A DNA stretch of 25,896 nucleotides from a virus. Both the position numbers and the translations under genes were made by a program. The notes below the pieces were generated by a model. It was not told where the DNA came from, did not search any database, and saw only the letters and a program-made list of their open reading frames with translations. The number at the start of each line of letters is the position of its first letter. Within the stretch, counting starts at the first letter, position 1. Shown in pieces: positions 4,106-19,615 of the stretch. The DNA lies in IMG/VR virus record IMGVR_UViG_3300042731_002945, positions 1 to 25,896 of that record, one strand, 5' to 3'.

Positions 4106-4327
4106 GTGGCGTGGATTCCCGTCGATTGGCTCATCGAAGCCAGTAGGCTGCGAACGAGGAGCGGTCGGCGGGAAACCTTGGGGTTTGGAGGAACGACTCG
4201 AGACAAGATCGGATTCGAGAAAAAGGGCAAGCGGAAGATAGTTTCCAAACGGAAGCGGCCAAAGCGGAAGCTTGGGGATCTTTTATCACGCGGGCCTCAC
4301 CGATCTCGTCTCATACGTTCAGGGTGA
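4106..4327 (+). CDS. Small very basic protein with N-terminal capsid-targeting-like tag (MAWIPVDWLIE/A)
   Basis: A 73-aa protein rich in Arg and Lys (GKRKIVSKRKRPKRK), so probably a nucleic-acid-binding internal head protein. The N-terminus MAWIPVDWLIEA closely matches that of the gene at 9033 (MAWISIDSLIEA), although the rest of the two proteins differs. The shared block ends in L-I-E before Ala, which fits the cleavage rule of T4 gp21-type prohead proteases ([L/I]-x-E). I chose GTG at 4106 because the match to the 9033 start runs from the first residue, although the Shine-Dalgarno run (TAGGGG) is unusually close. Its stop overlaps the region just before the protease start, so it sits immediately before its presumed processing enzyme. 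That it is real is supported mostly by the tag similarity. Confidence 0.6.
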   Translation: MAWIPVDWLIEASRLRTRSGRRETLGFGGTTRDKIGFEKKGKRKIVSKRKRPKRKLGDLLSRGPHRSRLIRSG

Positions 4328-4332
4328 AACAG

Positions 4333-5922
4333 ATGGCAGCTCTACTCATCGACACCATGCCTTTGACCTTCCAACTGGAAGAGTCCAAAGAACCCGGAAA
4401 GCTGGGCAAGGTCATTGCTCGCGGGCCATATGCTCGTAGTGATAAGGCCACCGAGAACAAGCGTCTCTACAAGCGTCACTTGTGGGAGCGTGAGATTGCT
4501 CGGATGTCTGAGGACATGGCGTCACGACGGACTTTTGGTGAGCTTGATCATCCTGCCGATGGGCGCACCAAGCTTCAGCGTGTAAGTCATCTGCTTACCG
4601 GGCTCAAGGTCGAGGGCAACGAGGTCATCGGTGAGTCGGAGATCCTGGACACCCCGAACGGTCGCATTCTCAAGACCATCATGGAGGCCCAGGCCCAGGT
4701 TGGCGTAAGCAGCCGGGGCTATGGTTCTACCAAGACGCTCCCTGACGGAACCATGGAGGTGCAGGAGGATTTCAGGCTCGACACCTTTGATTTCGTCGCT
4801 GACCCTGCGACCCGCTCAGCGTATCCGCAGGTGTTCCATGAGGAGCTTGAGCGGATACCGGAGGATGACATGGGGTTGACCGTAGAGGATCTGAGGACCA
4901 ACTATCCTGGTCTCGTAGAGGAGATTACCTCAACAGTGCTGGCCGAGAATGAGCGGCGTGTTGAGGAGCGGCTGACTGAGAAGTTCTCATCTGAGCTTCG
5001 GCGGAAGATGGAGCAGATCGGTGAGGCCGTCGAGGAGCGTGTCAGGAGTGAGTACCTGAGCGATCCCGAGGTGGCCGGTGCCAAGCAGGTCTTGGAGCGC
5101 GTCGCTTCGTTGGTCACGAGCTTCGCCAACCCCGTTGTTCATCAGCAAGAGCTTGCCTCGAAGGATGACGCCATCAAGGATCTCGAGGGCAAGCTGGCCG
5201 AGCGAGAGCTGGAGATTCAGAAGCTCCAGAAGGAGCACGGAGAAATCTCGACCGTTGCCAAGGAGGCCGCATATCGGCTTCATATGGAGCGAAAGATTGC
5301 TGGCGACCCGGCGAGAAATGCCATCGTCAAGCTCATGGGTGACATGGGCCAGTACGAGGACATCGAGGCATTGGACTCTCGCATTGAGGCGGTTCAGAAA
5401 GAGCTGTCTGCGGCTCGAGACGAGCATATCGGCGAAGAGGACGAGGCCAAGGGCGAGCTGGCCGACAAGCTCAAGGGGCTTGAGGATCGCCTTGACCAGG
5501 CAGAGAAGCGGGCCGACGATGCTGAGCAGAAGGTTTCTGAGGCCAATGAGCGGACCCGGAAGGCCATCGAGATTGCCGAGGCCGTGCAGGTTCAGTCGTT
5601 CATTGAGGGCATCGTGTCGTCGCATACTGACGGTGACGAGCTTGAGGAGCTTCTCGAGGGCGTCAGGTCTGTTGATGAGGCGACTCGAATCGTCCGGACC
5701 TTTGAATCCAACTCATCGAGCCGCAGGGCTCGTGATGAAGATGAAGCAGAGAGAATTCGTGCCCGGGTAGGGCGCGGTAAGCAGCGGTCTCTCGAGGAAG
5801 ATACCTTTGGGAGGTCGCGTCGTAAACCAAGCAATGGCCAGCAGGGCGCTACGCTGGATGATTTCGGGCTCACAGAAGACGAGTTCGATGAGCTTGCAGG
5901 GACGGGAAATCTGACCTCGTAG
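4333..5922 (+). CDS. Prohead maturation protease (S80, gp21-like) fused to a coiled-coil scaffold region
   Basis: Residues ~1-180 form a serine protease of the phage prohead type: His73 in FGELDHPADG, Ser126/127 in GVSSRGYGS, then DTFDFVADPATRSAYP, which is the usual end of the T4 gp21/S80 domain. From about residue 190 to 470 the protein is Glu/Lys/Ala-rich and predicted by eye to be a long coiled coil (IKDLEGKLAERELEIQK; LEDRLDQAEKRADDAEQK), as in scaffold proteins. T4 makes protease (gp21) and scaffold (gp22) from separate genes; here they are one 529-aa chain. Expected roles are to shape the prohead and then cleave core, capsid and tagged internal proteins after L/I-x-E. I prefer ATG 4333 (AGGG eight bases upstream) over GTG 4324, which overlaps the preceding stop. 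The major capsid gene follows. Confidence 0.88.
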   Translation: MAALLIDTMPLTFQLEESKEPGKLGKVIARGPYARSDKATENKRLYKRHLWEREIARMSEDMASRRTFGELDHPADGRTKLQRVSHLLTGLKVEGNEVIGESEILDTPNGRILKTIMEAQAQVGVSSRGYGSTKTLPDGTMEVQEDFRLDTFDFVADPATRSAYPQVFHEELERIPEDDMGLTVEDLRTNYPGLVEEITSTVLAENERRVEERLTEKFSSELRRKMEQIGEAVEERVRSEYLSDPEVAGAKQVLERVASLVTSFANPVVHQQELASKDDAIKDLEGKLAERELEIQKLQKEHGEISTVAKEAAYRLHMERKIAGDPARNAIVKLMGDMGQYEDIEALDSRIEAVQKELSAARDEHIGEEDEAKGELADKLKGLEDRLDQAEKRADDAEQKVSEANERTRKAIEIAEAVQVQSFIEGIVSSHTDGDELEELLEGVRSVDEATRIVRTFESNSSSRRARDEDEAERIRARVGRGKQRSLEEDTFGRSRRKPSNGQQGATLDDFGLTEDEFDELAGTGNLTS

Positions 5923-5955: not shown

Positions 5956-7452
5956 ATGGAGGCACGGAACATGAATCTGACCGAGGCTGGATCGCGGTCC
6001 ATCCGTGATGACAGTTACACTGGTCAGCTTGTCGAAAAGTGGGATCGCTTCTTGAAGGGAGTCTCCGAAGACTACACCAAGAAGTGTATGGCGATGCTCA
6101 TGGAGAACCAGTTTCTCGATATGCGTCGTCAACTCGCCGAGGATACCCTCAGCACCAACGCGGGTGTGTACACCAAGTACATCTTCCCCGTGTTGCGCCG
6201 GGTGTTCCCGAACCTGATCGCCAATGAGATCGTCTCGGTTCAGCCGATGACGGCTCCCGTCGGTGCCGTTTTCTATTTCGAGTACAAGCATGGTCGGTCC
6301 AAGGGCCAGACCACGGCGGGGACGAACCTGATCCAGAACTTCGACGATCAGTACAGCTCGGAGAAGATCGAGGACGAGCAGCTCACTCCGGTTCTGGCTG
6401 GTGGTGAGTGGTTCACCGGCAGCCCCGGCTCAGTCATCTTGCAGTACAACCCGGTTCGTCCCCTGGATGCGACCGTGGGGTACTCGCTGACGGTCGAGGA
6501 GTACAACCCGACCACTGACACGGTTGTTCAGTCTCACCAGGACAACGGAGCTGGAGGTTTCACTGGTGCCTTGACCGGTGCCATCAACTACGCCACGGGA
6601 CAGATCACGAATTTCACATTCGCCCTGGTCACCACGGCGGGCAACTATGTCCGTGCCACCTACTGGTACGACATGGAAGGCAACCGGAACATCCCGGATG
6701 TCTACATCGACATCGAGTTCGAGACCATTCGGGCGCAAACCCGGAAGCTCAAGGCTCGTTGGTCGAGCGAGGCCGCCGATGACCTTCGCGCCTTCCACGG
6801 CATCGACGCCGAGACCGAGCTGGTCAGCGGCATCAGCCAAGAGGTTGCGCTGGAAATCGACCGTGACATCCTGTCGCAGCTCTTCACCGCTTCGGCGGGG
6901 ATCATCGAGACGTTCGACTTCACGGTTCCGGCGGGCATCACCGAGATCGATCACATTCGGGCCATCATGACCCGTATGAGCGCGGTCAGCTTCCAGATTC
7001 ACAAGCAGACCCTTCGGGCGCCTGCCAACTGGTATGTGACCAGCCCCGAGATCTCGGCCAAGATGGTCCAGATGCAAACCCATGCGGACTATCGAGCCCC
7101 GTGGGTCAGTGGCGGTGGCAACACACAGGGTCCGTTCGACGGCATCATGGTGCCTCCGAGCTACGGCCCCATGACTTCGCATCAGGGCATCCTGAAGATG
7201 GGACCGCTGTCCAACAAGTGGATGGGCTATCAGGACCCGTTCTTCCAGTGGAACCAGATGATGCTCGGCCTTCGAGGTCGCAGCTATTTGGACGCTGGCT
7301 TCGTGTTCAGCCCCTACGTGCCTCTCCAGATGACTCCGACCTTCCTCGACCCGGAAGACCAGAGCTATCGCAAGGGCATGAGGACCCGTTACGCCACCAA
7401 GCGGCTGCGTGACGAGTGGTATGGGCGTGTAACGATAACGGGTGGCTTGTAG
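5956..7452 (+). CDS. Major capsid protein (T4 gp23-like)
   Basis: A 498-aa HK97-fold capsid subunit of the gp23 lineage. Recognisable segments are RRVFPNLIANEIVSVQPM (81-98; T4 has RRAIPNLIAFDICGVQPM), KLKARWSSEAADDLRAFHGID (264-284) and the C-terminal FVFSPYVPLQMTPTF with KGMRTRYATK. Residues ~155-240 form an insertion with D-N-G-A-G and I-N-Y-A-T-G motifs that also occur in the tail sheath protein here. gp23 is trimmed by the prohead protease after L-T-E; this protein has L/I-x-E sites at E10 (NLTE/AG), E50 (LME/N) and E62 (LAE/D), any of which could be the maturation site. The start ATG 5956 has an excellent leader. An intrinsic terminator follows at 7525. The identification is secure. Confidence 0.95.
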   Translation: MEARNMNLTEAGSRSIRDDSYTGQLVEKWDRFLKGVSEDYTKKCMAMLMENQFLDMRRQLAEDTLSTNAGVYTKYIFPVLRRVFPNLIANEIVSVQPMTAPVGAVFYFEYKHGRSKGQTTAGTNLIQNFDDQYSSEKIEDEQLTPVLAGGEWFTGSPGSVILQYNPVRPLDATVGYSLTVEEYNPTTDTVVQSHQDNGAGGFTGALTGAINYATGQITNFTFALVTTAGNYVRATYWYDMEGNRNIPDVYIDIEFETIRAQTRKLKARWSSEAADDLRAFHGIDAETELVSGISQEVALEIDRDILSQLFTASAGIIETFDFTVPAGITEIDHIRAIMTRMSAVSFQIHKQTLRAPANWYVTSPEISAKMVQMQTHADYRAPWVSGGGNTQGPFDGIMVPPSYGPMTSHQGILKMGPLSNKWMGYQDPFFQWNQMMLGLRGRSYLDAGFVFSPYVPLQMTPTFLDPEDQSYRKGMRTRYATKRLRDEWYGRVTITGGL

Positions 7453-7563: not shown

Positions 7564-7575
7564 GCTGGAGGAGTC

Positions 7576-7968
7576 ATGAAGTTCAAGAAAGCCCGTCCGG
7601 GCGTTCTCAGGCTAAATGTTGGTGGCGGAACGAAGCTCGTCAAGGATGACGAGATTCTCGAGGGCGCCTATTGGAAGAAGTTTGCCGATCTCGGCATGCT
7701 GGTCCTGGTTGAGGAAGAGGCGGCGGCACCGGTTCCAAAGCCGGTGACGAAGAAAGCTCCTGCCAAGGAGCCAGAGAAGGTGCCAGAAGAGCCCAAGAAG
7801 GCTGAGCCCAAGGCTGAGCCTGAGCCCGAGCCAAAGGCCCCTGAGCCCGAGTCCAAGGTCGAAGAAGGCACGATGACTAAATCGTTCGCCGACAAGATGG
7901 CCAAGGCCCAAGGGGACAAGGGAACGTCAGTTTCGACGAAATCGAAGACGAAACGGCGCAAAAAGTAG
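7576..7968 (+). CDS. Small structural-type protein with Pro/Glu/Lys-rich low-complexity linker
   Basis: A 130-aa protein with a short ordered N-terminal domain (MKFKKARPGVLRLNVGG... to about residue 52, including GAYWKKFADLGMLVLVEEE) followed by a long alternating Pro-Glu-Lys linker (KAEPKAEPEPEPKAPEPE) and a basic tail ending KSKTKRRKK. The start ATG at 7576 has a clear GGAGGAG leader, and the gene is the first after the terminator. A similar layout (short N-terminal domain, charged Pro-rich linker, basic KKGSKKRRG end) is seen in the gene at 14590, just before the sheath gene. Function is unknown; a minor virion or head-decoration protein is possible. Confidence 0.65.
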   Translation: MKFKKARPGVLRLNVGGGTKLVKDDEILEGAYWKKFADLGMLVLVEEEAAAPVPKPVTKKAPAKEPEKVPEEPKKAEPKAEPEPEPKAPEPESKVEEGTMTKSFADKMAKAQGDKGTSVSTKSKTKRRKK

Positions 7969-7992
7969 TGTAAGCTCGGACGAGGTGGTTTG

Positions 7993-8250
7993 ATGCGCCT
8001 TTCTGAGGAGCTATATGGTGCCATCTTCGAGATGAGTGCCCGTGATGTTCGTAAGAAACTTCGCCGCGCTGGCTGTATCGAGCTGCGCCAGAAGGGGAGT
8101 CATGTGCAGGTATCGTGCCCTCCAGATTTGAAGGGCACGGTTCCTGTTCATGGAAAAAAGGACATCAAGAAGGGTACACTGAAGGCCATCGAAAAGTCGT
8201 TGCAGATTGATCTCGACGGTGACGGGAAGCCGCGTGGAGGTGGTTCATGA
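7993..8250 (+). CDS. HicA-family mRNA interferase-like protein with N-terminal capsid-targeting-like tag
   Basis: Residues 14-75 match the HicA toxin family, whose members are small dsRBD-fold ribonucleases that cut mRNA: MSARDVRKKLRRAGC, then R-Q-K-G-S-H-V with the catalytic His37, then PVHGKKDIKKGTLKAI, the standard HicA C-terminal block. The first 13 residues (MRLSEELYGAIFE) are extra compared with typical HicA proteins and resemble the tags on neighbouring genes. An I-F-E tripeptide (11-13) ends exactly before Met14, where an ordinary HicA would start, so cleavage by the phage protease could release a native-looking HicA. Leu3-Ser4-Glu5 is another possible site. No HicB antitoxin is adjacent. 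I chose ATG 7993 (GAGGTGG leader) over the upstream TTG; the stop overlaps the next gene by ATGA. The family call is strong; packaging in the capsid is inference. Confidence 0.85.
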   Translation: MRLSEELYGAIFEMSARDVRKKLRRAGCIELRQKGSHVQVSCPPDLKGTVPVHGKKDIKKGTLKAIEKSLQIDLDGDGKPRGGGS

Positions 8251-9026
8251 CCGACCCTCTCAACAGAGAGGACGCCATCGACTGGGTCAAGAGGTCGCTT
8301 GGCTGTGGAGCTGTCATTCTCGAGGTGACCGAGCAGCATGCAGATGACTCATTTGATGACGCTTTGAGATGGTGGATTGCGCGCAAGGGGATCAAGCGCC
8401 ATGCTGTCCAGAATATTGTGTCTGGCGAGTCGTCTTATGCAATGCCGGATGACTGTGACGAGGTGTTGGCGGTTTGGTTTCCTGGAGTCCAGCTTGACGT
8501 CATAGCGGCCATCAATCCCTTTGCATTCATCGACGTTGAGATGTTGCCAGTGGCCTATCAGAGCCTCACGGGACTGCCTGGTGGATCATTCTACGGCACC
8601 CTGCACCAGATGATTGCCCATGCGTCGACGGCGCGGCGTGTCATTGGTGCAGAGCCAGCCTTTGAGTACGACAAGGACATCAACACCCTTCACATTTACC
8701 CCACCAATCACCAGAGCGGGACGGCCATTGCTCGGTATGCCAGTACGACGCTGGTTACCGAGGACCCGACACCGCCGGCCACAACGCCGGTGAACGACTT
8801 CAAGAAGCTGCGGTTTCGGGACAGGGACCTTATCCTTCGGTACGCCAGGGCGTGCCTGAAGGTGCGTCTCGGGCGCGTGCGTAGCAAGTATACTGAGTGG
8901 CCGTCTGCGGGCGGTCCCAAGACCATGGACGGCGAGACATTGGTCAGTGAGGGCCAGGGCGAGTGGGACACCCTGACCGAGGAGCTGATTGGTCTCAGCG
9001 ATCCCGTTCCGTTCGTGGTTGGGTGA
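8247..9026 (+). CDS. Putative neck / head-completion protein (gp13-like)
   Basis: A 259-aa protein. Its N-terminus (AIDWVKRSLGCGAVILEVTEQHADDSFDDALRWW, quoted in outline) resembles the R-x-L-G-x-x-V-x-x-x-E-[LV]-T pattern of neck proteins in T4-like phages, where the next helix leads into D-A-[LI]-x-W. The C-terminal part (FRDRDLILRYARACLKVRLGRVRSKY, then a Gly-rich TMDGETLVSEG) is also typical of head-tail connector proteins of large myoviruses. Its start overlaps the HicA stop by ATGA, so the two are probably translated together. The position between capsid and sheath genes fits. The specific gp13 equivalence comes from memory of sequence patterns and is uncertain. Confidence 0.5.
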   Translation: MTDPLNREDAIDWVKRSLGCGAVILEVTEQHADDSFDDALRWWIARKGIKRHAVQNIVSGESSYAMPDDCDEVLAVWFPGVQLDVIAAINPFAFIDVEMLPVAYQSLTGLPGGSFYGTLHQMIAHASTARRVIGAEPAFEYDKDINTLHIYPTNHQSGTAIARYASTTLVTEDPTPPATTPVNDFKKLRFRDRDLILRYARACLKVRLGRVRSKYTEWPSAGGPKTMDGETLVSEGQGEWDTLTEELIGLSDPVPFVVG

Positions 9027-9032
9027 CGCGGC

Positions 9033-9461
9033 ATGGCTTGGATTTCTATCGATAGTCTCATAGAGGCCAAAAAGAAGCGCAAGGCGGCGCGTGGTGGCCT
9101 CAGCAAGAAACCGCCACAACAGAAGCCAAGGCCCGGTGGCTCACAGGCCAAGGCCAAGGTTGATCGGGTGCCGGCTCAACTGATGCACTGTGTCAACGCG
9201 GTGAAGGCTGGAAGGCCAAGCAAGCCTGGTGGGAAGCCTCAGAAGAAACATAGCGTGCGAGCGGCCTGGAACATCTGCCGGTGGTCCTTGACGCGGCATG
9301 GGTACCTGAAGCCGCCCTATAAAAAGAATGCCAAGCTGTCGAGTCTCCGTCAGACACAGAAGGGTTCGAGGGCGTCGATGAAGCATGCCATGGAGCCCGA
9401 AGCACCGGCGAAGTATAAGCGATTCAAGGACCTGTTCAGGGACATTGAGCCCACGGTGTAG
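9033..9461 (+). CDS. Basic DNA-binding-type protein with tag MAWISIDSLIE/A
   Basis: A 142-aa, strongly basic protein. The N-terminal MAWISIDSLIEA repeats the start of the gene at 4106 almost exactly and ends in the protease-type site L-I-E before Ala-Lys-Lys-Lys. After a Lys/Pro/Gly-rich linker (residues ~13-48) comes a more conserved-looking domain, SVRAAWNICRWSLTRHGYLKPPYK (~80-103), and a helical tail ending KYKRFKDLFRDIE. No known enzyme family is recognised. Charge suggests nucleic-acid binding, and the tag suggests that it is carried inside the head. It lies six bases after the neck-like gene. The start ATG is fixed by the tag match. Confidence 0.7.
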   Translation: MAWISIDSLIEAKKKRKAARGGLSKKPPQQKPRPGGSQAKAKVDRVPAQLMHCVNAVKAGRPSKPGGKPQKKHSVRAAWNICRWSLTRHGYLKPPYKKNAKLSSLRQTQKGSRASMKHAMEPEAPAKYKRFKDLFRDIEPTV

Positions 9462-9470
9462 GAGGATGCG

Positions 9471-9677
9471 ATGAAGCTTTCTGCAAAATTGAGTGAGGCA
9501 ATTGGTGATGGCATGGGTCACGGAGGGGTATGTAAGTGCTTGGAGTGTGGTTATTCGCAGCCCCATAGAACAGGTGAGCCATGCGAGAAATTGGAATGTC
9601 CGAAATGTGGCTCAAAAATGGTTCGAGAGGGTCAGGGCGAGAGGCCCGGTAGAGGCATGGGCATTGGAAGGATCTAG
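9471..9677 (+). CDS. Tagged zinc-ribbon protein (MKLSAKLSE/A)
   Basis: A 68-aa protein. The N-terminal MKLSAKLSEAIGDG is a member of the tag family and carries the L-S-E/A cleavage-type site at residues 7-9. The remainder is a compact zinc ribbon: C-K-C-L-E-C-G-Y, then E-K-L-E-C-P-K-C-G-S-K-M, that is two Cys-x-x-Cys-Gly knuckles. It ends in a Gly/Arg-rich tail (GERPGRGMGIGRI). The leader TAGGAGG is good and ATG 9471 is clear. The ribbon could bind nucleic acid or a protein partner such as RNA polymerase; neither can be decided. A longer shifted reading frame at 9493 on the same strand overlaps it but lacks the Cys pattern and the tag. Confidence 0.75.
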   Translation: MKLSAKLSEAIGDGMGHGGVCKCLECGYSQPHRTGEPCEKLECPKCGSKMVREGQGERPGRGMGIGRI

Positions 9678-9680
9678 GCT

Positions 9681-10322
9681 ATGAGCAGAACCACCTTTCA
9701 CGGAAAAAGCGGACGTTTTACATCTCCACGGTCGGCTCATACCGTGACCAAGGGCGGCGAGCGGTTCAAGATGGTGCGGCAGCTTCGGCGTATTGGCGGC
9801 AAGGCCCCGGCGCCCGAGCCCGAAGCAGACGTGGCCGATACCGTAGAGGCGGCCAAGGCCAAGGAAGAGATGGCGATGTTTGTAGCGGCATCTCCGGGCT
9901 GGATTCCTCTTCATGACGTGATGGGCGCCGCGTTTGGCGAGGATTTGGATGAGTGGGCGCTGGCCCATGGAAAGACCGCGTACAACGTGCCGCCGCCATT
10001 CATAGCTGCCAGGGTTTTGAAGATCACGGCCAGCAAGGTCAAGAAGGCATTGGCCCAAAAGCGGTACATCGCGAGCGGGCGCGGGCGGGCGTGGACCATG
10101 AGGTACACTGATGACCTGTCGCCCGGGATCAGGATTGCCCATTACCGGCATGACAGCAAGGATAGGAGCAAGGACTATTGGTCTGCTAGCGCCTATCAGG
10201 GGGCAGATTCTTCCAAGCGGTGGAAGAGCTTTGAGGACAAGGATCTCAAGAGGGTTTTGGCCTTTGCAAACGAGCACGCTCAAGAGGCGGCTGACGCCAT
10301 GGCACAAGAAGGAGCGATCTGA
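9681..10322 (+). CDS. Unknown 213-aa protein
   Basis: I do not recognise this protein. The N-terminus (MSRTTFHGKSGRFTSPRSAH) is basic and lacks the tag. A linker rich in Ala/Pro/Glu (~45-65) is followed by a helical domain (GWIPLHDVMGAAFGEDLDEWALAHG, then ITASKVKKALAQKRYIASGRGRAW) that could be a winged-helix-like nucleic-acid-binding fold: 'ASKVKKAL...RYIASGRGRAWTM' has the look of a recognition helix and wing. The C-terminus is again helical. It starts four bases after the zinc-ribbon stop with GGAAGGA upstream. Co-transcription with the tagged small genes suggests a related accessory role, but nothing here shows its function. Confidence 0.6.
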   Translation: MSRTTFHGKSGRFTSPRSAHTVTKGGERFKMVRQLRRIGGKAPAPEPEADVADTVEAAKAKEEMAMFVAASPGWIPLHDVMGAAFGEDLDEWALAHGKTAYNVPPPFIAARVLKITASKVKKALAQKRYIASGRGRAWTMRYTDDLSPGIRIAHYRHDSKDRSKDYWSASAYQGADSSKRWKSFEDKDLKRVLAFANEHAQEAADAMAQEGAI

Positions 10323-10324
10323 TC

Positions 10325-10639
10325 ATGAGGCTGTCAAACGAGCTAAAAGAATCGGTCGATAGGGTGAGTCAGGTTTTCCAGCTAAGGAAGCAGATCAAGA
10401 ACCTGTGGGAGGTTATTAATCTCGCCAGGGATTTCAGCGGTGAGGCATTGGCATATAGGCAGTTGTTGATACGGTCCTTGGAGAAAAATCATGACTTGGG
10501 CGAGCTTCTGTCGCCGTCTGTTAGAAACCAATTGTCCAAACATGAAAGAGAAATGGACAGGGTTTATGCAAAGTTCGACAAGGAGCTAAAAAAAGCCCCT
10601 AAGCCATTCAAAGACAAGTCTTGGACTGATCTACTTTAG
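10325..10639 (+). CDS. Tagged helical protein (MRLSNELKE/S)
   Basis: A 104-aa protein whose first ten residues MRLSNELKES match the tag consensus, with L-K-E/S as the cleavage-type site at residues 7-9. The remainder is almost wholly helical (QVFQLRKQIKNLWEVINLA; HEREMDRVYAKFDKELKK) and slightly basic. No family is recognised. The start ATG 10325 is two bases after the stop of the preceding gene; the tag fixes it. The AT content is somewhat higher than in neighbouring structural genes. It is probably an internal virion protein if the tag hypothesis is right. Confidence 0.68.
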   Translation: MRLSNELKESVDRVSQVFQLRKQIKNLWEVINLARDFSGEALAYRQLLIRSLEKNHDLGELLSPSVRNQLSKHEREMDRVYAKFDKELKKAPKPFKDKSWTDLL

Positions 10640-10652
10640 AAGGAACGATGTG

Positions 10653-10718
10653 ATGAATATCGAGCGAGTCAATGAGCTGTCCAGTTTGAGAAGAGATGTC
10701 TCTGGCAAGGGGAGATAG
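10653..10718 (+). CDS. Possible 21-codon micro-ORF
   Basis: Between 10639 and 10719 an ATG frame encodes MNIERVNELSSLRRDVSGKG plus one Arg, preceded by GAAGGA at 10639-10644 and ending directly at the next gene's ATG. It could be a leader peptide, a decayed tag gene or chance. The AAGGGGAGAT leader of the next gene lies inside it. Confidence 0.25.
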   Translation: MNIERVNELSSLRRDVSGKGR

Positions 10719-11282
10719 ATGGGCTTCTGTGGCGATGATTGCAAGCCCAAAAGGCGCATATTCCCGGGCGGCGAGTGCGGCGAGGGATGTGGAGACGAGC
10801 GCCAGGTTTGGGACTCTATCGCTACCGAGCCGGCGAGGCTGGCTGGCGAGCCCGTCAAATTCTACTCCATCCGGCGGGCCAAGAACCGCGATCCCCTCTA
10901 CAAAGAACCATCGGCTGAAGGCCAGGAATGGGCCTATGAGGGGCCGTTTGAGGTCTGGGCATCCATAGACTTCCCGCAGTCAGAAAACATTACCCAGGAG
11001 GCCACAGAGGTCGGGGAGCGCAGTGAGGCTGACGCCATAGCCTGGGTATCCCGCAAGGAGTTCGAGGACCGTGAGGCGCCGTATCCAAAGCGGGGGGACA
11101 TTTTGGAGTTCTGGGCTCAACCTCCGTGGGGGTACGAGCCAGAAAATACTCAGTGGGATGTGACCAAAGCGACCCGTGACGGCAACGTGTTCACGACGGC
11201 GGCCTTTGTGATGTACAAGGTTGAGCTAAAGCAGCGGAGCAAGTTCGTACCGTTCCGCAAGACGGAGCATAGCAGGATATGA
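10719..11282 (+). CDS. Putative neck protein (gp14-like)
   Basis: A 187-aa protein. The N-terminal 30 residues contain five cysteines (CGDDCKPKRR; GECGEGCGD) that could bind a metal. The core has an oxidoreductase-free, beta-rich look: YEGPFEVWASIDFP, then R-x-E-A-P-Y-P-K-R-G-D-I-L-E-F-W, which resembles the 'YPxxGDII' segment of T4 gp14-type neck proteins, followed by strands ending FVMYKVELKQRSKFVPFRK. It sits between a gp13-like and a gp15-like gene, in agreement with T4 order 13-14-15. ATG 10719 has AAGGGGAG upstream. The Cys cluster is not part of what I know of gp14. Neck assignment is tentative. Confidence 0.45.
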   Translation: MGFCGDDCKPKRRIFPGGECGEGCGDERQVWDSIATEPARLAGEPVKFYSIRRAKNRDPLYKEPSAEGQEWAYEGPFEVWASIDFPQSENITQEATEVGERSEADAIAWVSRKEFEDREAPYPKRGDILEFWAQPPWGYEPENTQWDVTKATRDGNVFTTAAFVMYKVELKQRSKFVPFRKTEHSRI

Positions 11283-11539
11283 GACTGTCAGATGAACTGA
11301 ATGAATCTTTGTCCGAGGGGAAGTATCCGAGACTCGAGGCAGAGACCGATGATCGCATTGATAGGCTCCTCAAACACCTTATGAGTGCAGAAGAGAAGCT
11401 GAAGGCTGCCAAGCGTGAGAAGTGGCAGGCAGAACAGCAAATAGGGACGCTTGAGGCTAGGATAAAGCACTACAAGGAGTCTATCGATAAGCTGCGTGCG
11501 GCCAAGAAAAAACTTGCTAAGGCGTCGACTCGAGGTTGA
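11279..11539 (+). CDS. Tagged coiled-coil protein (MRLSDELNE/S)
   Basis: An 86-aa protein with tag MRLSDELNES and the cleavage-type site L-N-E/S at residues 7-9. From about residue 28 to the end it is a continuous heptad-like helix (RLLKHLMSAEEKLKAAKREK; IGTLEARIKHYKESIDKL) ending in a basic Lys/Ala-rich stretch. It starts inside the stop of the preceding gene (ATGA overlap), implying translational coupling. No family is recognised. A small DNA- or protein-binding internal head protein would fit the composition and the tag. Confidence 0.7.
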   Translation: MRLSDELNESLSEGKYPRLEAETDDRIDRLLKHLMSAEEKLKAAKREKWQAEQQIGTLEARIKHYKESIDKLRAAKKKLAKASTRG

Positions 11540-11540
11540 A

Positions 11541-11972
11541 ATGAGACTGTCTCAGGAGCTTGAAGAGGCCACTAGGAGATCCCGAGTATTTGGTGATGCG
11601 TGGGGCTTGGTTGTGACGAAGGCGATGGCGCCAGAGTTGGCCAAGGGGGGTCTTGCATCATTGAAGCCGTCGGTTGTCTATCACGTCCGTACTCCGAAGC
11701 CGCATGATGAGTCATTGGGAGTTGTCGCAAAGAAGGGCAAGCGTTGGTATTACGCTTTGTCGCCGCAGTTTAGGCCAAAGCCGAGCCGTGATGCCAAGGG
11801 TGCCCTTCGAGGACTCATTGGCGCTCATATTTACGGGGTGATGAAGGCGGTGCAGGGGAGCCCGGAGAAATGGGGCAATACGGTGGACGACGCTCTGAAG
11901 AACTTGGAGTGTCCCATACTTCAGAAGCTTGCTCATACCTTTGGGTTCGTGAAGGAGTATGGAAGCCTGTGA
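11541..11972 (+). CDS. Tagged basic protein (MRLSQELEE/A)
   Basis: A 143-aa protein beginning MRLSQELEEA with L-E-E/A as the cleavage-type site. I place the start at ATG 11541, not at a start 45 bases upstream, because the tag begins there and it follows the previous stop by one base. The body shows strands (SVVYHVRTPKPHDESLGVVAKKGKRWYYAL) and a helix-rich C-terminal part (GLIGAHIYGVMKAV; DALKNLECPILQKLA). It is net basic. No family is recognised. Its first eleven bases after the start (ATGAGACTGTC) are nearly identical to the starts of the 11279 and 11969 genes. Confidence 0.7.
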   Translation: MRLSQELEEATRRSRVFGDAWGLVVTKAMAPELAKGGLASLKPSVVYHVRTPKPHDESLGVVAKKGKRWYYALSPQFRPKPSRDAKGALRGLIGAHIYGVMKAVQGSPEKWGNTVDDALKNLECPILQKLAHTFGFVKEYGSL

Positions 11973-12364
11973 GACTGTCTCGGCAGCTCGAGGAGGCACT
12001 GAAGGTGCCCACCCCTTACGACATGCACGTCAAGCACGGCATGCCGCTGACGCCGACCTTTATCACCAAGGGGCGCAAGGGAGTAGAGGCCAAGGGACCA
12101 CACCTGTTTTGCTCTAGGACACCTGACGGGAAGTGGAAGATTGATGGACGGCTCAAGGGTAGCCGCCGAAGCGTGAAGGTGCTCGAGAAGAAGAGGATGG
12201 CCTATCAGATGGCCCGGAAGCTTCTCAATCACCTGCGTGATTATGGTGATGATTTCGTGGTGAATGATGGGAAACGGACCTGGAGGGTCAAGGCCGGTGA
12301 CACGTTGGCCTTTACTGATGCCCAGAAGGGCATTGAAAGATGGTTCAAGAGAGGTGGATCATGA
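11969..12364 (+). CDS. Tagged basic protein (VRLSRQLEE/A, GTG start)
   Basis: A 131-aa protein read from GTG 11969, which overlaps the preceding TGA stop (GTGA). The frame is open further upstream, but the tag RLSRQLEEA begins here and the longer version would overlap the previous gene by about 100 bases. L-E-E/A is the cleavage-type site. The body is basic: FITKGRKGVEAKGPHLF, WKIDGRLKGSRRSVKVLEKKR, then a helical region and VNDGKRTWRVKAGDTL. No family is recognised. It belongs to a run of five coupled short genes (11279-12752). Confidence 0.68.
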   Translation: MRLSRQLEEALKVPTPYDMHVKHGMPLTPTFITKGRKGVEAKGPHLFCSRTPDGKWKIDGRLKGSRRSVKVLEKKRMAYQMARKLLNHLRDYGDDFVVNDGKRTWRVKAGDTLAFTDAQKGIERWFKRGGS

Positions 12365-12405
12365 GTCTTGCGAAAGAAATACTGGGCGAGCTGGGTGCGC
12401 TGTGA
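12361..12405 (+). CDS. Orphan 14-residue tag-like peptide
   Basis: A 14-codon frame, MSLAKEILGELGAL, too short for ordinary gene finding. Its ATG overlaps the stop of the gene before (ATGA) and its TGA overlaps the GTG start of the gene after (GTGA), so it is placed like a translated link in a coupled chain. Its pattern, x-L-[AS]-x-E-[IL]-x-[GE], is that of the tags, with L-G-E at residues 8-10. It may be a free tag, a coupling peptide or a remnant of a tagged gene. Existence as a stable peptide is unproven. Confidence 0.4.
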   Translation: MSLAKEILGELGAL

Positions 12406-12752
12406 AACTTTCGGAGCAGCTACATGAGGCCATTGGCTCTAGGCGCCTTGATGAGGCTGCTGAGCGCGTTGTTTTGTCAGTTGGCCAGATGGTCTCGGTG
12501 AGGAACAAGCGTGGTGTGACGGTCATAAAGAGGGGCCGCATTGCCAATGTAGACTTGCCCACGGGAACCATCCGGGTGGAGGACATCGATTCAGGCACGA
12601 CGCTAGAGGTTGATGTCAATCCTGAGAAGTACACTGTCTGGGTATTGCCGCCCCCAGACGCCAAGGTGGACAGGATGTCCAGGATCAAGACCCTGTATGT
12701 CCGTGGCGGTGGTCTCAGGCCGAGCGCGTATCAAGGGGGGAAGTGGCCGTGA
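12402..12752 (+). CDS. Tagged beta-rich protein (VKLSEQLHE/A, GTG start)
   Basis: A 116-aa protein starting at GTG 12402, inside the stop of the 14-residue ORF. The frame continues upstream to 12264 but would overlap the previous gene by 100 bases; the tag KLSEQLHEAI marks the true start. L-H-E/A is the cleavage-type site. The body, SVGQMVSVRNKRGVTVIKRG then TIRVEDIDSGTTLEVDVN, looks like a small beta-barrel (SH3- or KOW-like) that could bind nucleic acid. The last part ends RGGGLRPSAYQGGKWP. No named family is recognised. Confidence 0.72.
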   Translation: MKLSEQLHEAIGSRRLDEAAERVVLSVGQMVSVRNKRGVTVIKRGRIANVDLPTGTIRVEDIDSGTTLEVDVNPEKYTVWVLPPPDAKVDRMSRIKTLYVRGGGLRPSAYQGGKWP

Positions 12753-17785: not shown

Positions 17786-18184
17786 ATGAAGAAGCTGGCA
17801 GAGGAGATTCGGGGTATTCTGAAGGCGTCTATTGATGGTGATGACGGCCATCTTCAAGAAGAAGAGCCAGAGCCGGAAGAGGGGTCTTTGTGCGAAGACA
17901 CTGGAACTCCCTGCTGGCAGCTTCAGGAGGCAGCTCAGTTCATTGCCGAGGACATGTCCGAGGTTATGGGCGTGGACCCGGAGGTGCTCTCTGTGGCGCT
18001 CACAGAGGCCATGAAGTGCGATAGCAAGTGCGGCGAGAAGTACCGCACCAAAGATGGCGGTTTCAAGGGAGGCCGGGGCGAGGCGTTCAAGACCTGTGAG
18101 GAGTACGCCAAGGCGTGTTGCTCGGGGGTCAAGGACGCTGGAGCTTTTTGTGCTTATTTGGGAAGACGAGCGGGTAAAATTTAG
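17786..18184 (+). CDS. Cys-rich protein with tag-like N-terminus
   Basis: A 132-aa acidic protein starting MKKLAEEIRGILKAS, a looser form of the tag (L-A-E at residues 4-6; Gly, not Glu, at the usual cut position). After an acidic linker (LQEEEPEPEEGS) there are nine cysteines, including C-E-D-T-G-T-P-C, K-C-D-S-K-C-G and T-C-x5-A-C-C, which could form a metal site or disulphides. The final stretch is GAFCAYLGRRAGKI. No family is recognised. Leader GAGGTG, ATG 17786. It stands between sheath and tube genes and ends in a predicted terminator. Confidence 0.62.
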   Translation: MKKLAEEIRGILKASIDGDDGHLQEEEPEPEEGSLCEDTGTPCWQLQEAAQFIAEDMSEVMGVDPEVLSVALTEAMKCDSKCGEKYRTKDGGFKGGRGEAFKTCEEYAKACCSGVKDAGAFCAYLGRRAGKI

Positions 18185-19066: not shown

Positions 19067-19615
19067 GTGGGTCGTCTGTCAGAGCAACTAGGGTCGGCGA
19101 TTCGTCCAGGACCCCCTGACTGTGAGGGGCTGATCGTCAAGGTGGCCAATCTCAGCAATGAGAACTACCCTGGAATGGATGTTCAGGGTGTGCTCCCTGT
19201 GCTTGTTGTTGGCCATCAAGACCTCAGTGAGCATGAGTGGGCCTCGTGGGTCAAGATGCAAGCTATGGCGCCCTATGGGATTGCTTATGCGTCCCGACTG
19301 GCCGAAGAGGGTGTTGACCTCAAGGACATGATGCCGACAACGGCTCTTGGCCGACACATGAGGAAGCCTGGAGGGGGCTCGAATTATTCTCGTTTTGAGT
19401 ATCTTGATCGAGCGGGATACATATTGACCTTGGTCGAGAAGTGGCCCTCGCTCTATAATCTGATATCAGAGGAGATGAAGGAGCAACGGATGACCCTCGT
19501 GGAGTTCGTGAGGCGAGTCCAAGAGCTACCTTCTCCGCAAGAGGTTGGGCAGGGGCGACACTCAACACTGGGTGACCTTATCAGTCGTTTGGTCACCGTC
19601 ACCCCTGATTTTTAG
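19067..19615 (+). CDS. Protein of unknown function with tag-like start (VGRLSEQLGSAI)
   Basis: A 182-aa protein. GTG 19067 has a full AGGAGG leader (19055-19060). The N-terminus GRLSEQLGSAIRPG is close to the tag of the 12402 gene (KLSEQLHEAIGS) but has Gly-Ser where that has His-Glu; L-S-E at residues 4-6 is a possible alternative cut. The body is alpha/beta: GLIVKVANLSNENYPGMDVQ, VLPVLVVGHQDLSEHEW, then helices (YILTLVEKWPSLYNLISEEMKEQ). No family is recognised. It lies directly before the tube gene. Confidence 0.62.
   Translation: MGRLSEQLGSAIRPGPPDCEGLIVKVANLSNENYPGMDVQGVLPVLVVGHQDLSEHEWASWVKMQAMAPYGIAYASRLAEEGVDLKDMMPTTALGRHMRKPGGGSNYSRFEYLDRAGYILTLVEKWPSLYNLISEEMKEQRMTLVEFVRRVQELPSPQEVGQGRHSTLGDLISRLVTVTPDF

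Follow-up and report, generated by a model that had tools for sequence, protein, structure and literature searches.

HicA is an RNA-cutting toxin and HicB is its usual antidote. The window considered here, the whole 25,896-base stretch of one environmental virus record (IMGVR_UViG_3300042731_002945), carries head and tail genes of a T4-like myovirus and, at positions 7993–8250, a gene for an 85-residue HicA-type protein that begins with a 13-residue N-terminal tag. This gene probably specifies an RNase that is made as a head-packaged internal protein and delivered to the next host, and the described systems closest to it are the internal head proteins of T4 on the one hand and the HicA toxins on the other.

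The T4 proteins IPI, IPII, IPIII, and Alt are made with a short N-terminal propeptide, the capsid targeting sequence (CTS), that ends in L/I-x-E, a pattern seen in the T4 propeptide sequences examined here. The T4 protease gp21 cuts after L/I-x-E, the first 10 residues of IPIII suffice for targeting, and CTS fusions have brought green fluorescent protein (GFP), EcoRI, and staphylococcal nuclease into T4 heads (PMC9026906). The window resembles this system in having one type of propeptide on unrelated bodies, with a tag of 13 residues beside T4 propeptides of ∼10–19, and in its basic bodies, gp21-type protease, and accessory, variable gene set (PMC9026906). It differs in that the tag sequences are dissimilar, the cargo is a HicA toxin domain, and packaging is here predicted from genes. 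In the giant phages SPN3US and phiKZ, a gp21-related protease likewise cuts the propeptides off head and ejection proteins on the C-terminal side of Glu, but the motif in those phages is A-X-E or S/A/G-X-E and many of the propeptides exceed 100 residues (PMC10052503, PMC5694885).

Compared with HicAB modules (PF07927), the window HicA has no detected HicB and carries an additional N-terminal tag. Like Adephagia gp90/gp91, it is a HicA-like toxin encoded by a phage, but Adephagia is temperate and carries a HicB-like partner (PMC11594946). HicA domains are known from varied gene and fusion contexts, ordered into genetic-context classes 1–14 (PMC10865869), and the available portion of that paper does not describe a capsid-tagged HicA among these classes. 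No description of a CTS-tagged HicA appeared among the literature matches listed, in a scope that left most subscription papers outside and is consequently weak evidence of novelty. The tag logic and the toxin fold are thus both known, and there is weak evidence that their combination has not been reported in print.

The original prediction had named the gene a HicA toxin from its motifs, and profile searches bore this out. PF07927 (HicA_toxin) matches residues 16–71 at 2.2e-15 and 56.9 bits, above the curated cut-off of 27, and phrog_353 ("toxin") matches residues 13–74 at 3.5e-17; the protein had no match in PADLOC or NCBIfam, and isolate phages yielded only five HicA matches, all distant. 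The structural model, built on 23 relatives, gives a HicA fold in residues 16–70 with a mean predicted local distance difference test (pLDDT) score of 80, and of ∼91 across residues 21–50. Its elements (H16–25, E29–34, E37–42, E46–51, and H60–70) correspond to the α-β-β-β-α arrangement of HicA, and its top five hits in Foldseek were to HicA chains or to the homologue 1whz. His37 is found within a G-S-H motif and aligns with the G-S-H His of Yersinia HicA3 (4p78), which is His28 and is catalytic according to a review (PMC11594946). Residues Gly35, Ser36, His37, Pro51, and His53 are invariant in 23/23 aligned HicAs, and G-S-H is intact in all five distinct tagged phage HicAs, on which grounds loss of the catalytic site was rejected. 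At the level of sequence, the 85-residue protein is confirmed as a HicA-family member with an intact catalytic motif and predicted RNase activity. Its features are as follows.

7993–8250, + strand: tagged HicA gene, 85 residues, with ATG at 7993 and a stop codon ending at 8250 (PF07927, phrog_353).
7982–7988, + strand: Shine-Dalgarno-like GAGGTGG, 4 nt upstream of the ATG at 7993 (sequence).
7993–8031, + strand: N-terminal tag MRLSEELYGAIFE, 13 residues, with predicted cleavage after E13 (I-F-E) (similar N termini, leave-out profile).
8032–8247, + strand: predicted mature HicA, residues 14–85 (HicA fold in the model, Foldseek matches).
8101–8103, + strand: codon of His37, predicted catalytic (aligned with the G-S-H His of 4p78, invariant in 23/23).
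8149–8151, + strand: codon of His53, invariant (23/23 aligned HicAs).

The tag runs directly into Met14 (ATG at 8032), with coordinates, frame, and sequence as earlier described. The start at 7993 has a good Shine-Dalgarno sequence, whereas none lies at the usual spacing before 8032. Scans of viral contigs gave five distinct extended HicA sequences in nine records from three lineages, namely the window (identical in two further records), L010, L011 (identical to L012 and L013), L014, and L062. The extension is present in 5/5 distinct HicAs of this phage group, with [ILM]xE directly before the conserved Met, and ends in IFE/M, LYE/M, IFE/M, and LLE/M (the slash marks the end of a tag), or, in L062, in MFE followed by a second stretch ending MAE/M. 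The claim of 13 extra, tag-type residues before Met14 therefore stands, the same kind of extension recurring in other phages. Untagged viral HicAs (L015–L017 and L063–L066) start near Met14, and in most homologues, cellular or untagged viral, the start lies at the Met14 position or up to ∼7 residues upstream, some cellular loci having ambiguous or missing starts, so that Met14 is only roughly the normal HicA start that it had been taken to be. Within the tag codons silent changes are the commoner, with proportions of silent (pS) and amino acid-changing (pN) differences of 0.63 and 0.19 between the window and L010, rough values from a short stretch, and of 0.63–0.86 and 0.19–0.34 across comparisons of relatives. 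Genes were called with a custom-built caller, which picked an internal start in G009, G010, and G011, where the HicA N terminus was replaced by the upstream-ATG form; G001 was analysed as locus L002 (11,535 of 12,631 bases).

The absence of a HicB partner, also part of the original prediction, was upheld within the nine tagged-HicA records, the window record included, where PF15919 and PF05534 gave no match at E ≤ 1; a HicB elsewhere in these records was rejected on this basis. PF15919 was found in 6/7 records with an untagged viral HicA, adjoining HicA each time by its coordinates, as compared with HicB in 0/9 records with a tagged one. No neighbour of HicA is common to the three lineages, with the exception of a 29-residue capsid-like match described below.

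The tag is shared by unrelated proteins and takes lineage-specific forms. The N terminus of the window HicA resembles seven N termini among the other 34 called genes (shuffled mean 0.0), and tag profiles built without HicA, from training sets chosen by hand, ranked HicA 1/29 in the window, 1/74 in its relative G009, 1/296 in G012, and 6/302 in G013. G012 is a 185-kb record of a distant phage, in which ∼67 kb separate the HicA gene from those of the protease and the capsid protein, and the neighbours of HicA carry a different tag, M-x-L-I-x-x-I-D-x-L-L-E; 11 N termini are similar to that of the G012 HicA (shuffled mean 0.4, with a shuffle maximum of 5 for any gene). The G012 tag profile scores −5.9 bits on the window HicA, and the window profile −6.9 bits on the G012 HicA. 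As the two profiles reject each other's HicA and each HicA fits its local set, the HicA domain wears the local tag, and this comparison strongly supports the proposal that a tag had been added in front of an intact HicA. The HicA gene is located on opposite sides of one neighbour in the window and G009. It was not found in G003–G007, and none was seen in the corresponding slot of G004 and G006, which makes HicA an accessory gene.

Bodies of the 40 tagged proteins from three genomes have no within-genome similarity, and the only similarities among them are three cross-genome pairs, one of which is HicA. Three trivial sources of the shared tag were rejected: gene duplication, because of this lack of within-genome similarity; chance resemblance, on the seven similar N termini and the leave-out rank of 1/29; and a DNA-level element such as a promoter, because the wobble bases differ between tags.

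Counted with tag thresholds that were fixed after the N-terminus similarity results were known, [ILM]-x-E with its Glu at residues 8–15 occurs in 31/50 tagged versus 64/363 untagged N termini of the window clade (2000 shuffles: mean 10.1, maximum 19), in 13/13 versus 37/287 in G012 (mean 2.9, maximum 8), and in 9/12 versus 36/297 in G013 (mean 2.9, maximum 9, the count thus being equalled by at least one of 2000 shuffles). The usual site in the window clade and G013 is L-x-E followed by Ala or Ser, with Glu at residue 9, and several tags without Glu at 9, including that of HicA, have their site at 13. A gp21-type protease was present in 7/7 records searched and a gp23-type capsid protein in 6/6, the latter keeping L-x-E before the mature core in all six with a variable x. 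A small protein just upstream of the protease, in the position occupied by T4 gene 68, has a tag-like start in the window, G004, G009, G012, and G013; its called start in G006 has no tag-like sequence. The tagged bodies are basic, with median isoelectric points (pI), from lists chosen by hand, of 9.9, 9.8, and 9.0 in the window, G012, and G013, respectively, as against 5.0, 5.2, and 6.1 for the other genes; HicA domains have a pI of 9.3–10.6. In the window the tagged HicA gene sits between those of the major capsid protein (phrog_138) and the adaptor, and the gene content further includes a portal, a head maturation protease (phrog_207), a sheath, and two tube-like proteins. The head genes and other tagged genes concerned are listed below.

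4324–5922, + strand: gp21-type prohead protease, presumed to be the tag-cutting enzyme (phrog_207 at 6.4e-45, and 2.2e-50 in a second search).
5956–7452, + strand: major capsid protein of gp23 type, with L-x-E at residues 60–62 before the mature core (phrog_138 at 8.3e-62).
4106–4327, + strand: small basic protein upstream of the protease, N terminus MAWIPVDWLIE/A, GTG start (sequence; counterparts in relatives).
9033–9461, + strand: protein with the tag-like N terminus MAWISIDSLIE/A (sequence).
9471–9677, + strand: tagged protein MKLSAKLSE/A, Cys-rich (N-terminus similarity, as for all lines that follow).
10325–10639, + strand: tagged protein MRLSNELKE/S.
11279–11539, + strand: tagged protein MRLSDELNE/SLSE/G.
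11541–11972, + strand: tagged protein MRLSQELEE/A.
11969–12364, + strand: tagged protein MRLSRQLEE/A, GTG start.
12402–12752, + strand: tagged protein MKLSEQLHE/A, GTG start.
17786–18184, + strand: weaker tag member MKKLAEEIRGIL, without the cleavage motif at 8–15.
19067–19615, + strand: tag member MGRLSEQLGSAI, without the cleavage motif at 8–15, among tail genes.

Taken together, the T4-type protease and capsid protein, the L/I-x-E end of the tag, and the tag-like start of the small protein before the protease make head packaging of the tagged HicA well supported by analogy with T4. The tag would draw newly made HicA into the prohead core, where the prohead protease would cut it after E13. 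Mature HicA (residues 14–85) would then stay in the head with the DNA, enter the next cell at infection, and cut RNA there, which could knock out the expression of host genes, or a host defence that depends on RNA, before phage gene expression has fully started. In the producing cell, the protection that normally comes from HicB would be given by the confinement of HicA to proheads. We infer that toxin delivery is the most likely function, and shut-off of host translation by the delivered HicA is plausible. Of the scheme originally proposed, the tag on an intact HicA is borne out and head packaging is favoured by analogy, with packaging, cleavage, and injection still inferred.

Several observations weigh against this explanation. 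In the window clade 19/50 tagged N termini have no motif at residues 8–15, and the tagged protein at 19067–19615, the one that fits head packaging least, sits among tail genes, between the sheath and tube genes in all large relatives (51% identical in G013). The N termini of the T4 IP proteins, Alt, gp22, gp24, and gp67 score below 0 with all four tag profiles, and that of T4 gp68 scores 2.5 with one and below 0 with three. The tag of the G013 HicA is a weak match to its own set and has Met at P3, and the Shine-Dalgarno sequence before the tag start looks weak in L011–L013. Most records are fragments and the HicB search covers the sequence in them, which leaves room for a distant HicB. Finally, a packaged binder without nuclease activity is a competing possibility.

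According to this last alternative, HicA is packaged and trimmed as proposed but is a basic nucleic-acid-binding internal protein that serves in DNA packing, shielding, or inhibition of host nucleases or defences, with little or no role as an RNase. The basic HicA domain and the generally basic tagged bodies suit such a protein, and T4 provides precedents in IPI, which is an inhibitor and not an enzyme (PMC3012670), and in IPIII, which is required to infect one E. coli strain (PMC9391042). However, none of the five distinct phage HicAs, nor any other sequence in the alignment, has lost G-S-H or His53, and as the phage HicAs differ by up to about half of their residues, an inactive site could be expected to have drifted. 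The RNA binder without nuclease activity that the original prediction had offered as its alternative is weakened by this retention, and the packaged binder appears unlikely.

A more doubtful reading gives the tag a different role, for example in the assembly of the tail or neck, in recruiting chaperones, or in turnover, and has HicA act late within the producing cell, as a toxin or regulator. Tagged proteins do occur among the tail genes (17786 and 19067), some of them without a cleavage motif, and the tags are unlike T4 CTSs. This sits poorly with the enrichment of L/I-x-E in the tags, the similar N terminus on the small protein upstream of the protease, the basic tagged bodies, and the T4-type protease. 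Moreover, free HicA should be costly in a producing cell, given that an Adephagia mutant without its HicB-like gene grows poorly (PMC11594946). That the extension is a start-site artefact, with translation from Met14 in the working protein, is very improbable: Met14 is kept in 5/5 phage HicAs and T4 gp21 has a second start (PMC9026906), but the Shine-Dalgarno sequence lies before 7993, the tag codons change more often silently, and the HicA N termini match those of unrelated genes.

HicA may not be the only toxin-like cargo behind such a tag. In most of the tagged proteins scanned no domain could be recognised, and a PHROGs search did not convincingly assign a function to the window's other tagged proteins. 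In G013, where the HicA gene is followed by further tagged genes, a tagged 333-residue protein (MRLSEQLAE/AT..., G013:104884–105885, L102:4884–5885) contains a RelA_SpoT domain (PF04607 at 1.8e-9 and 38.3 bits, cut-off 27). A tag of this kind would thereby precede a second class of toxin-like enzyme, which hints that the injected set is wider. A tagged protein of G012 has a DnaJ domain (6.3e-7). Inspection by eye shows HExxH-like motifs in some of the tagged proteins of G013, G006, and G009; none of those scanned had a Pfam match that passed the cut-off. It is tentatively suggested, at somewhat less than even confidence, that several T4-like lineages use a swappable capsid-targeting module, by which toxin domains (HicA, RelA/SpoT, HExxH peptidase-like, and others) would become co-delivered injected effectors, packaging replacing the antitoxin.

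Some long tagged proteins have internal or terminal tag-like stretches (G006:106925–108877, G006:108879–110318, G013:164183–165595, and G013:30004–32979), for example GLSSQLVEALLSE/REAK, as if several cargo units were made in one chain and then cut apart. With a pattern written after examples were known, four internal stretches were counted in 10,337 residues of tagged proteins versus three in 116,997 residues of untagged ones. G012:48318–48902 and the C-terminal part of G006:106925–108877, from distant phages, have a domain in common (38% identity), which in one protein follows an N-terminal tag and in the other an internal one. An ADP-ribosyltransferase-like identity was suspected for the G012 48318 protein and was dropped, the model being too poor (mean pLDDT 45) for any claim. 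Arrays of small genes in G004 (7564–12251) and G006 (46113–49768 and 104097–106889), phages without HicA, encode different bodies behind a shared N-terminal form of greater length, MDIExVNxVLxxAIxxxQE....

Two genes from HicA in G012 lies a gene for an 87-residue protein (G012:45987–46250, L027:5987–6250), 29 residues of which resemble the capsid segment RVFPNLIANEIVSVQPM (48% identity, 1e-7). T4 gp23 has a PNLI segment at residue 104, and the Gol region of gp23, by which Lit is triggered, is 29 residues long. The 87-residue protein is possibly a capsid-peptide mimic or decoy. In the window itself, a probable intein splits the portal gene (15–2060): the insert is in frame, has a match to HNH endonuclease at residues ∼140–204, and has boundaries that look Cys-rich by eye.

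If the tagged HicA is indeed packaged and delivered, a toxin of a toxin-antitoxin system would now serve as an effector that the virion delivers, and the capsid, by confining it, would do the work of the antitoxin. Lineage-specific tags at the N terminus, with L/I-x-E at their end, would then provide a sequence rule by which to list the proteins that uncultivated T4-like phages are likely to inject, proteins that mostly lack a recognisable domain, and the question of which proteins T4-type phages inject besides their DNA would become testable across environmental phages.
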